Below are positions 36,944 through 39,879 of a stretch of 59,266 bases of DNA, piece by piece; position 1 is the stretch's first letter; each line of letters starts with the position of its first letter. Both the position numbers and the translations under genes were made by a program. Source of the DNA: Acidimicrobiia bacterium (GTDB lineage: Bacteria > Actinomycetota > Acidimicrobiia > Acidimicrobiales > Acidimicrobilacustridaceae); contig JAFIEP010000016.1 of the NCBI GenBank assembly GCA_020832495.1, positions 1 through 59,266 of the forward strand, in the 5' to 3' direction. Under the pieces are notes generated by a model that made no database searches, was not told the DNA's origin, and saw nothing but the letters and a program-made list of their open reading frames with translations.

Positions 36944-37016
36944 GCCCGGGTAGCTCAGTCGGCAGAGCGGCTCACTCGTAATGAGCAGGTCAGGAGTTCG
37001 ATTCTCCTCCCGGGCT
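36944..37016 (+). tRNA. tRNA-Thr (anticodon CGT)
   Basis: A complete cloverleaf can be drawn. The acceptor stem is GCCCGGG / CCCGGGC, the D arm is GCTC-AGTCGGCA-GAGC, the anticodon arm is GCTCA-CTCGTAA-TGAGC with anticodon CGT reading ACG, and the T arm is AGGAG-TTCGATT-CTCCT. The discriminator base is T and CCA is not encoded. It is the only full copy; three shortened copies lie downstream at the ends of small gene cassettes. Confidence 0.97.
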
Positions 37017-37144
37017 CTCAAGCCTGTGACCAGGGGCTTTGCGCCCTCGGCACCAGGAAGCCTCTGAGCACAGCGCTCATCGGCCTGGACAGTGGCTAAC
37101 CGCTGGACGGCCGTTCGGTTGCCCGGTCACGTAGCATCGGCACC

Positions 37145-37444
37145 GTGGTGAACCTGCCGCGAGACGAGGTGGAACGGCTCTGTCGTCACTTCGGTGTGTC
37201 GCGCTTGGCGCTGTTCGGGTCGGCGGTGTCGGAGGCGGCATTCGACCCTGACCGAAGTGACCTCGATGTGGTGGTCGAATTCGGCGCTGACGTACCCGAC
37301 CTGTTCGACGCGTACTTCGGACTCCGCGAGGGCCTCGAAGCCCTCGTTGATCGACGCGTCGACCTGGTCATGGCCTCGGCTGTTCGAAACCCGTACGTGG
37401 CGCAGAGCATCGCCGACACCCAACGGGACCTGTATGCAGCGTGA
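37145..37444 (+). CDS. mntA: MntA-type nucleotidyltransferase antitoxin
   Basis: 99 aa from GTG 37145. Minimal nucleotidyltransferase: FGVSRLALFGSAVSE, with GS and DxD in RSDLDVVVEF; the spacing between GS and DxD is 12 residues against 10 in the common form. In MntA/HepT systems the antitoxin adds AMP to a Tyr of the HEPN toxin and silences it. TAGCAT (37132-37137) lies 7 nt before the start codon, so the pair carries its own leaderless promoter. The last 11 nt overlap the HepT gene. This is cargo of cassette 1. Confidence 0.88.
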   Translation: MVNLPRDEVERLCRHFGVSRLALFGSAVSEAAFDPDRSDLDVVVEFGADVPDLFDAYFGLREGLEALVDRRVDLVMASAVRNPYVAQSIADTQRDLYAA

Positions 37445-37781
37445 CCCACGCTCGTTCGTGTGGGATGCCCGACGAGCGATAGCGCACCTACGTTCGTTCG
37501 TGGCTGGCAAGACCTGGGCGGACTACGAGGCCGATGTCTTGCTGCGTTCTGGCGTGGAGCGGCAGTTCGAGATCATCGGGGAGGCGTTGAACCGCTTGTC
37601 CAAGGCGGATCCTGAGGCGGCTGCCCGTGTGGATGACCTTGCGCGGATCGTCGCGTTTCGCAACATCCTGATCCATGGCTACGCGGTGGTTGACGATCGG
37701 CTCGTGTGGGATGCCGTGTCGAGCCGACTCGATCGTCTCGACGCGGATCTCGCCGAGATCGAAGCCGGGTTCGACGGGTAG
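37434..37781 (+). CDS. hepT: HepT-type HEPN ribonuclease toxin
   Basis: 115 aa from ATG 37434, overlapping mntA by 11 nt. The HEPN motif R-x4-H-x-Y is intact in FRNILIHGYAVVDD; the R and H form the RNase site and the Tyr is the residue modified by MntA in characterised systems. The N-terminal helix SFVWDARRAIAHLRSFV and SGVERQFEIIGEALNRL are typical. HepT proteins cleave tRNA or mRNA. It appears complete and functional. The array's first 125-bp block starts 36 nt after its stop, with a small GCCCG/CGGGC hairpin in between. Confidence 0.9.
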   Translation: MQRDPRSFVWDARRAIAHLRSFVAGKTWADYEADVLLRSGVERQFEIIGEALNRLSKADPEAAARVDDLARIVAFRNILIHGYAVVDDRLVWDAVSSRLDRLDADLAEIEAGFDG

Positions 37782-37817: not shown

Positions 37818-37942
37818 ACGACAGTGGATAACACCCCAGCACAGCGCTCAGCGCTGACCTGCGCTTTCGCGGGTGAGCACAGCGCTCAGCCCGGGATCAC
37901 TCGTAATGAGCAGGTCAGGAGTTCGATTCTCCTCCCGGGCTC
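37818..37942 (+). repeat. Array block B: 125-bp hairpin chain ending in a D-armless tRNA-Thr copy
   Basis: The block begins ACGACAGTGGATAACAC. Three perfect hairpins follow almost without gaps: 37842-37856 (6 bp, loop TCA), 37858-37873 (6 bp with one G-T, loop CTTT) and 37874-37888 (5 bp, loop ACAGC). Then comes GCCCGGG (37889-37895), one A, and 45 nt identical to tRNA-Thr from the anticodon stem to the discriminator (37897-37941). The two 7-nt acceptor strands are complementary, so the copy can fold as a tRNA without D arm (53 nt against 73). Hairpin 3 and the 5' part each contain the direct repeat GCACAGCGCTCAG. Confidence 0.95.
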
Positions 37943-38115: not shown

Positions 38116-38769
38116 GTGCCGCAGCGTCTCAAGGTCTTCATCGACTACCAGAACGCCTACATGCGCGCACGCGACGCGTTCGGCGACGAGACCACCAGGC
38201 GGAACTTCACGTTCGGCCAGTTCAACCCGCAGCGCCTCGGCATCCGCCTGCGCCAGATGGCAGCGGACGCAGGCAAGGACCGCACGCTCGACGAGGTCCG
38301 GGTCTACCGCGGAGAGCCGGACGCCAAGCACAACCCGACCGGACAGGCCGCCTGCCAGCGCCAAGTCCGCTACTGGTCGGCTCAGCCCGCAGTGCAGGTC
38401 TTCACTCGCCCGCTGGACTACCGGCCCACTCGCTGGGAGAACAACGCTCCGGCGGAGTGGGATGTACGCGAGAAGGGCATCGACGTGATGCTTGCGGTGG
38501 ACCTCGTAGTGGGCGCGATCCGCAACGAGTACGACGTGGCCATCCTGATGTCGGCGGACACCGACCTGCTGCCCGCAGCAGAAGCCGTGATCGGCGCGGG
38601 CAAGTGGATCGAGTTCGCAGCCTGGCGACCCGACGTGGGCTACGCCTCCCACCTCCGCGTCCAAGGCCGACGCACCTGGTGTCACCACTTGCGGCGACGG
38701 GACTTCGAGATAATCGCTGACCCCACCGACTACACCAAGCCGCTCCCCAGAGCGTCGCCAACCACCTGA
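38116..38769 (+). CDS. NYN-domain (PIN-like) nuclease, lone cassette gene
   Basis: 217 aa from GTG 38116; GGGGG lies about 8 nt upstream. It has a NYN/LabA-type fold: RLKVFIDYQNAYMRAR with the first Asp, DVMLAVDLVVGAI with the second, and VAILMSADTDLLPAAEAVI with the SADTD acidic pair. A C-terminal part includes ASHLRVQGRRTWCHHL. NYN proteins are metal-dependent RNases. No antitoxin-like partner is present, so it may be a defence effector or depend on the structured block that follows 2 nt after its stop. It is cargo of cassette 2 and appears intact. Confidence 0.85.
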   Translation: MPQRLKVFIDYQNAYMRARDAFGDETTRRNFTFGQFNPQRLGIRLRQMAADAGKDRTLDEVRVYRGEPDAKHNPTGQAACQRQVRYWSAQPAVQVFTRPLDYRPTRWENNAPAEWDVREKGIDVMLAVDLVVGAIRNEYDVAILMSADTDLLPAAEAVIGAGKWIEFAAWRPDVGYASHLRVQGRRTWCHHLRRRDFEIIADPTDYTKPLPRASPTT

Positions 38770-38771
38770 GA

Positions 38772-38896
38772 ACGACAGTGGATAACACCCCCGCACAGCG
38801 CTCAGCGCTGACCTGCGCTTTCGCGGGTGAGCACAGCGCTCAGCCCGGGATCACTCGTAATGAGCAGGTCAGGAGTTCGATTCTCCTCCCGGGCTC
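38772..38896 (+). repeat. Array block C: second 125-bp block
   Basis: Same length as block B and different from it at only one position (C for A about 20 nt from the start). All three hairpins and the D-armless tRNA-Thr copy are intact. It begins 2 nt after the NYN stop codon and ends 28 nt before the next start codon. Confidence 0.95.
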
Positions 38897-38924: not shown

Positions 38925-39137
38925 ATGACGCGCAAAGTGACCACCGTGCGGATGCCTGATGAGCTGGCGGAGACCGCCGAGGTGATCGCCAGGGGGCGTG
39001 GGATCAGCCTGAACGCGCTGGTGGTCGAGGCGCTGGAGGCTGAGGTGGACCGGGTGCGGGCCGACGACGAGTTCATGTCGACGCTGCGGTCCTTGGCCGA
39101 GCGAGACCGGGAGATCCTCGACCGACTCGCTCAGTGA
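38925..39137 (+). CDS. Ribbon-helix-helix (CopG-like) antitoxin
   Basis: 70 aa. The N-terminus KVTTVRMPDELAETAEVIARGRGISLNALVVEALEAEVDRV is a ribbon-helix-helix DNA-binding fold (strand then two helices); the C-terminus is a charged helix that should bind the toxin. TAGCAT (38913-38918) lies 6 nt before the ATG, the same box as in cassette 1, so it is a leaderless, self-contained promoter. It overlaps the toxin frame by GTGA (39134-39137). Confidence 0.85.
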   Translation: MTRKVTTVRMPDELAETAEVIARGRGISLNALVVEALEAEVDRVRADDEFMSTLRSLAERDREILDRLAQ

Positions 39138-39537
39138 GGTATCTCTCGCTGGCTGAGGCGCTGGTCATCGCCGAGGTCGTAACCGGGATCGACGCCCATA
39201 CCCTGGCCCGAGCCTCCCGTCTGGAGCTTCTCGACTCGGCGCTGTATGCACCCAGGCGGGTTTCGGTGACACCGAGTTCTATCCGGAGTTCGTCGACAAG
39301 GCAGCGGTGCTGGTCGTTCGCATCGCCCGCAACCATCCGCTGCCCGGCGGCAACAAGCGGTTGGCGTGGCAGTCGCTCACGCTGTTCTGTGCGCTGAACG
39401 GCCAGCGTCTGGAGGTCGGAACGGACGAGGCGGTCGAAGTGGTGGTCGCCATCGCAGCGGGTGAGTGGGACGAGGAGCGCACCGCTGCGTGGCAACGTCC
39501 GAAGCTCGCCCCGGACGCTGCGGACGACAGTGGATAA
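39134..39537 (+). pseudogene. Doc/Fic-type toxin, frameshifted
   Basis: The first frame gives MRYLSLAEALVIAEVVTG ... LLDSALYAP, the N-terminal half of a death-on-curing protein. At about 39251-39254 the homology moves to the -1 frame (QAGFGDTEFYPEFVDKAAVLVVRIARNHPLPGGNKRLAW) and runs to a stop at 39535-39537. One C missing from a C-run explains it. The Fic/Doc motif is also divergent: HPLPGGNKR where HPFxDGNKR is expected. The toxin is therefore probably dead, unless the shift is a sequencing error or programmed. Its final codons lie inside array block D (stop TAA in GTGGATAAC). Confidence 0.85.
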
Positions 39538-39648
39538 CACCTCCGCACAGCGCTCACGCCCGACCTGCGTTGTCGCGGGTTGGCACAGCGCTCAGCCCGA
39601 GATTCCTCGTAATGAGCAGGTCAGGAGTTCGATTCTCCTCCCGGGCTC
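39524..39648 (+). repeat. Array block D: third, diverged 125-bp block
   Basis: It is again exactly 125 bp but differs from block C at about 12 positions, all upstream of CTCGTAATG; the last 43 nt, the tRNA 3' half, are unchanged. Hairpin 1 is destroyed, hairpin 2 keeps its stem but has a new loop (TTGT), hairpin 3 is weakened and the acceptor-like stem has one mismatch. Confidence 0.93.
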
Positions 39649-39879
39649 TCTTCTGTACCCCCAAGCCCGTTTGGAGCACCGAGTGGTTCTGGTGCGGCTC
39701 AGGCCCCAGTCAACACTTCGGCGCTCCTCCCGGGCTCCCAGCGCGCTGGGCTGGGATGGTGTGCGCGCCTCGGAGCGACCGTTGGTGCGAGGACCTCGGT
39801 GGCGAGGAAGGGGCGGCCCTCCTGGGATCCGCCGACGCCACGCGGCATCATGTCCCCCCCCGGGGCACTCGTCAGCGCA
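39538..39879. other. 342-bp gap with the end of block D and a tRNA remnant
   Basis: No gene. Apart from block D it contains, at 39724-39737, a 14-nt exact copy of the tRNA-Thr 3' end (CTCCTCCCGGGCTC), possibly what is left of a fourth copy. The remainder up to the SbtB-like stop shows no signal I recognise. Confidence 0.75.

Follow-up and report, generated by a model that had tools for sequence, protein, structure and literature searches.

We asked what the three blocks of exactly 125 bp are that alternate with small genes in a 59,266-nt stretch of an Acidimicrobiia genome (the window, which is the whole stretch analysed and corresponds to contig C14 of the 4.46-Mb draft genome G000). The initial annotation located these blocks, B, C and D, at 37818-37942, 38772-38896 and 39524-39648 (positive strand), positions and lengths that we confirmed, and took them for chains of hairpins. 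Block C is 99% identical to block B, and D, the most diverged, is 90% identical to it; no further full copy of the 125-bp block was found in the G000 genome. Each block is composed of a conserved arm of ~76 nt upstream (the P arm, from 37818 to ~37893 in block B) and, downstream, of a displaced tRNA-Thr 3' half that extends from the anticodon loop to the gene end. The P arm contains the motifs GGATAAC, CGCTC, the inverted pair GACCWGC/GCWGGT and GCACAGCGCTCAG. The latter is the direct repeat already noticed twice in B and C, where the two copies are 38 nt apart; in block D the first copy is altered at its last base.

Ahead of the blocks lies an intact tRNA-Thr(CGT) gene (36944-37017, positive strand; ARAGORN and Rfam), the integration target. 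Crossover would occur within its anticodon loop, CTCGTAA, as suggested by the tRNA halves of homologous sites, which start at or near the anticodon (see below). Next to this tRNA, at 37018-37100 in the same strand, is the P' arm of the tRNA-adjacent cassette, with the motifs TGACCAGG, GAGCACAGCGCTCA (37066-37079) and GGCTAAC recognized by eye. Motifs of the P' type, also identified by eye with no model, are located between the tRNA and the integrase in L127 and L132 and ahead of int in phage SirDuracell, and the first two were seen behind the tRNA in L039, L041 and L188, all integrase-less (by eye). Past block D, a degenerate tRNA 3' end at 39709-39742 (positive strand; repeat family D4, 79%) is possibly the remnant of an older insertion.

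The window presents three tandem cassettes with 0.6-0.8 kb between sites and all their genes in the positive strand. Cassette 1 encodes an MNT-type nucleotidyltransferase, a probable antitoxin (37145-37444; Pfam NTP_transf_2, E 1.6e-8), and a HepT-like (HEPN) toxin (37434-37781; Pfam HepT-like, E 1.9e-19); cassette 2 encodes an NYN-domain nuclease-like protein (38119-38769; Pfam NYN, E 3.3e-11); and cassette 3 a ribbon-helix-helix (RHH) antitoxin (38925-39137; Pfam RHH_1, E 1.8e-4) and a Doc/Fic-like toxin (39134-39537), assigned from its ORFs and a weak Fic match (E 0.0087, under Pfam's cutoff). The Doc-like ORFs 39134-39397 and 39307-39537 are in different frames; this gene has apparently been broken by a frameshift, and its RHH partner is intact. 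A P' arm is present in cassette 1, doubtful in cassette 2 and absent from cassette 3.

The arm is not confined to this genome. A sequence-only arm model, built from eight sequences and containing no tRNA, detected it (cut-off E <= 0.001) in 28 of the 397 genomes sampled from the order and in 30 of the 396 sampled from the phylum; the contigs of these drafts often end at the repeats, and since the model derives from eight sequences, distant arms are under-counted. A pattern scan of named genomes gave additional arm records in Acidimicrobiales, Geodermatophilaceae and Propionibacteriales. A tRNA half followed 48 of 68 arms and preceded none of the 68; most halves started at or near the anticodon, and they corresponded either to a 3' half in forward orientation or to a reversed 5' half. 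The latter mirror arrangement was observed in L047, L084, L094, L095, L181, L184 and L193, and in that case the 5' (promoter) side of the tRNA would come from the element. The best-matching target genes were those of tRNA Thr, Arg, Val, Met, Glu, Ala and Pro, with Lys, Ile and Arg(CCG) as further targets recognized by eye. Ten of the 20 arms without a tRNA half run into two recurrent coding-gene ends (by eye), and about 10 of the 68 arms have neither a recognized tRNA half nor a recurrent coding end downstream. By eye, the target in G201, G145 and L114 is a coding-gene 3' end with a VDEAYRVVPG-like terminal peptide, and L103 and L106 have another coding-gene end in common. In L082, L083, L086, L113 and L114 the arm joins the 3' end of a protein-coding gene, with a peptide like VDEAYRVVPGQGG and no tRNA; two contigs of G201 bear three arms each, joined to the coding-gene end.

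The arms are associated with a family of tyrosine integrases. Its reference member, in L040, is a 317-aa Xer-like tyrosine recombinase adjoining tRNA-Thr, and the L040 element, of 7.7 kb, has arm repeats at both ends. This protein has a SAM-like domain (residues 29-107) and a catalytic domain (138-299 of 317 aa), leaving ~28 N-terminal residues, i.e., the core-binding and catalytic layout of simple tyrosine recombinases without an N-terminal arm-binding domain; its best solved relatives are Xer proteins. Family integrases, defined by homology to that of L040 at E <= 1e-40, were found in 24 of 397 genomes; at 21 of the 26 loci the flank included a tRNA gene, which usually adjoined the integrase. 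Arms and a family integrase occurred together in 11 genomes (Fisher p about 4e-8, with genomes treated as independent). Among the 17 genomes with the strongest arms, nine had a family integrase and eight had none at E <= 1e-40; the latter could have weaker members or missing contigs, or the partner may belong to another family. No family integrase was found in the window cassettes or, at E <= 1e-40, in G000 as a whole (best match 31% identity), and a plasmid search with the L040 integrase gave no matches at E <= 1e-20. A second, distant tyrosine recombinase lies inside the 7.7-kb element (L040:10182-11201), and distant recombinase-like matches (E about 1e-5) were noted beside arms with tRNA-Val or tRNA-Met halves in L110, L112 and L186.

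The recombination site suspected in the initial annotation is supported, since the arm precedes half a tRNA gene in many genomes and accompanies a tyrosine integrase; the chained fold that it compared with attC or a structured RNA is not. It described hairpins of 6, 6 and 5 bp separated by a single unpaired base. A chained fold is indeed predicted in block B, but its hairpins measure 6, 7 (with one G-T pair) and 4 bp and follow one another without an unpaired base; the first, CAGCGC-TCA-GCGCTG, is missing from block D and from the relatives, and its significance was not confirmed. The "tRNA-like fold" turned out to be the tRNA 3' half together with GCCCGGG at the 5' side of the block. The latter was rejected as a functional acceptor stem, as it complements the acceptor strand in B and C and generally not in homologues. 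The excess of folding energy over shuffled sequence was modest, with z values for the whole block of -2.9 (B) and -2.0 (D), and for the arm alone of -2.3 (B), -1.1 (D) and -1.4 to -2.6 (three relatives). The only conserved stem is GACCWGCG-4 nt-CGCWGGT. When one side of this stem was shuffled among the sequences of 68 distinct arms, gathered mostly with a base-pair-free model, no excess of pairing over column shuffling was found at any of the seven stem positions. The two most variable inner positions contained T-T (18), A-A (6), G-G (12) and C-C (7), the T-T in 18 and A-A in 6 being those of the central position. Because the stem pairs no better than shuffled columns, the hairpin reading fails: homologous arms keep the sequence and not the pairing, the very outcome by which the initial annotation proposed to discard its fold. 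An inverted repeat conserved as sequence, without its pairing, is what is expected of a protein-binding site in duplex DNA. The arm motifs are thus best taken as putative double-stranded protein-binding sites, and the block looks like a plain double-stranded att site whose repeat motifs are conserved.

These data bear on two other accounts of the block. It could be a folded single-stranded attC-type recombination site and the array an integron, as the (gene-site)n layout beside a fixed target, the toxin-antitoxin cargo and the hairpins predicted in block B would suggest; we regard this as very improbable in view of the 68 arms without pairing excess over shuffled columns, the tRNA halves within the sites and the integrase, as the IntI-type model TIGR02249 gave the L040 integrase 41.8 bits against a cutoff of 265, a score by which integron identity was rejected. 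We give even less credence to a structured non-coding RNA or tRNA-like transcript: the z of -2.9 for the whole block B and the tRNA half in the block agree with it, but tRNA was the sole match at Rfam gathering thresholds, homologues are devoid of hairpin 1 and of the acceptor pairing, and the conserved stem has no compensatory excess. The pair counts across the 68 arms together with Rfam led us to reject an attC-like or RNA fold.

Comparison of related loci revealed that cassettes vary at one and the same tRNA. A DNA polymerase III delta'-like gene precedes tRNA-Thr in G000 and in many relatives alike, and at this locus G005 has the NYN cassette alone, with a gene 78-79% identical to that of the window. 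P' and P arms both flank cassette 1, as they do the corresponding cassettes of G005 and G054. G499 and G703, of genus g282, share a flank ahead of tRNA-Glu that is 71-76% conserved, and downstream of the tRNA their cassettes differ, blocks excepted; G499 and G774 match at the end of their last cassette. Integrase-less intervals between sites, mostly of 1-4 kb and some longer, were found in G499, G676, G497, G201, G008 and others. These comparisons, made between different species, suggest cassette movement; excision circles, empty sites and differences between strains were not among the observations. The genes beside arms, called by a simple codon-composition script and no gene finder, belonged to the families PIN, DUF433, DUF5615, PemK/MazF-like, Fic/Doc, RHH, HepT and NYN; several families recurred beside arms in a tally of the 25 commonest, made for toxin-antitoxin content against control genes, for which we claim no enrichment statistic. 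Three members matched the PADLOC candidate HEC-09 and are presumably the NYN proteins. A homologue of the Doc-like gene of cassette 3 adjoins an arm in L190, and a distant NYN homologue lies beside an arm in G196. NYN homologues were rejected as a marker of cassettes, since few of the loci checked had an arm nearby (G000, G005 and G196, plus a partial case in G001).

Viral genomes presented parallels. The temperate-phage contig L115 contains, in this order, an arm, a tRNA-Val half, a second arm and an integrase 43% identical to that of L040; a viral-contig search with the integrase pair returned one close relative, again the L115 contig. The integrases of cluster E mycobacteriophages and of Streptomyces phage Kromp are 33-40% identical to the L040 integrase, and arm-like motifs were seen by eye directly upstream of int in SirDuracell (L215, cluster E) and Kromp (L214), where they may define attP. 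A search of phage DNA with the L115 attP yielded a short match in four Caulobacter phages only, with an annotated tRNA there in two of them.

We consider it highly probable that the block is a hybrid att site of a family of short Xer-like tyrosine integrases that recombine in tRNA anticodon loops, and that the window holds a stack of integrase-less cassettes. The block would be the scar and attachment site of a small mobile cassette inserted in the middle of a tRNA gene. According to this model, an integrase of the family would recombine within the anticodon loop, and the inserted element would contribute a new 3' tRNA half followed by the P' arm, so that the host tRNA stays intact. The order after integration would be host 5' half plus element 3' half, P' arm, cargo, P arm and old 3' half, the latter displaced to the far end of the element and abutting the P arm in the junction seen as the 125-bp block. 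Repeated insertion at one tRNA would have stacked the MNT-HepT, NYN and RHH-Doc cassettes, and arms and genes decay with distance from the tRNA, which suggests that the newest is tRNA-proximal. Having no integrase, the cassettes would depend for movement in trans on the integrases that visiting phages or islands with the same arms bring in, the simplest source of movement that the shared arms point to. The array is best read as integron-like yet not an integron. More tentatively, and at somewhat less than even confidence, we propose a phylum-wide, integron-like capture of minimal cassettes carrying P and P' arms and toxin-antitoxin or defence-like genes, collected at tRNA landing sites and set in motion by the integrases that temperate phages and islands carry.

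A serious rival to mobilization in trans is that the cassettes are fossils, i.e., that integrase-bearing elements were inserted serially and internal deletions then removed the integrase from each, which could leave integrase-less cassettes too, immobile today. This history agrees with the model above on the att site and departs from it on mobility, and we hold it to be a real, if not the expected, possibility. The Doc frameshift, cassette 3 without a P' arm, G000 without a detected family integrase and the possible tRNA remnant after block D agree with it; the 99% identity of blocks B and C, the P' and P arms on either side of cassette 1 and of the corresponding G005 and G054 cassettes, the short cassettes in several genera and the NYN and Doc-like genes recurrent beside arms do not, and independent deletions to one compact form, although possible, are less simple. 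Since the locus is orthologous, vertical inheritance of NYN in G000 and G005 is also possible. Such inheritance of the NYN cassette together with its block, the remaining pieces being ordinary separate islands, would fit the presence of the same gene upstream of tRNA-Thr in many relatives and the 78-79% identity in G005; we find it unlikely, as it explains neither why one arm recurs throughout the phylum at many different tRNAs nor why cassettes differ at one tRNA.

If trans-mobilized cassettes are the correct reading, an integron-like architecture is achieved via ordinary double-stranded sites. The shared arms are a ready search model and allow a direct test of whether phage integrases move host cassettes. 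Such arrays escape those island finders for which an integrase is obligatory, and one of the ways in which actinobacteria acquire toxin-antitoxin and defence-like genes may therefore be uncounted. We found no earlier description of such arrays in the open-licence literature, a weak negative given that scope.

The islands listed by Islander, under the subsites of Williams 2002, have a tyrosine integrase, the anticodon as a standard crossover subsite, a regenerated tRNA and a displaced fragment marking the far end (PMC4383910), all of which are shared here: a displaced tRNA fragment split at the standard subsite was found in the window blocks and, overall, in 48 of the 68 arms. Islander demands an integrase per island, and its tandems of three or more number only 4 (PMC4383910), whereas the window members are of ~1 kb each and have no integrase of their own, the family integrases being in other loci. 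Simple tyrosine recombinases such as IntBrujita, of about 310-340 aa with core-binding and catalytic domains, serve mobile elements (PMC8138268); the family resembles them, by published description, in size, domain make-up and mobile-element role; a difference is the strong conservation of its arm motifs from one target to the next. Actinophages with tRNA-dependent lysogeny also integrate at tRNA anticodon loops (PMC10865867), but their integrases have an arm-binding domain and the phage brings a whole tRNA (PMC10865867). Cluster E mycobacteriophages and Kromp share a related integrase and similar arm motifs upstream of int, and differ in being whole temperate phages, with cores that we did not match to a tRNA half. 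Integrons and CALINs are alike in the fixed target and the tandem small cassettes that include toxin-antitoxin genes, and CALINs also in the absence of an integrase nearby; here, in contrast, the site holds a tRNA half, the single-strand attC-type fold is unsupported and the integrase is of a different family, not of the IntI type. Chemistry and target choice, then, match tRNA-targeted integrative elements of the ordinary kind (PMC4383910) that use a simple tyrosine recombinase (PMC8138268); the features that seem new are one arm shared across the phylum at many different tRNAs and the tandem piles of minimal integrase-less cassettes.
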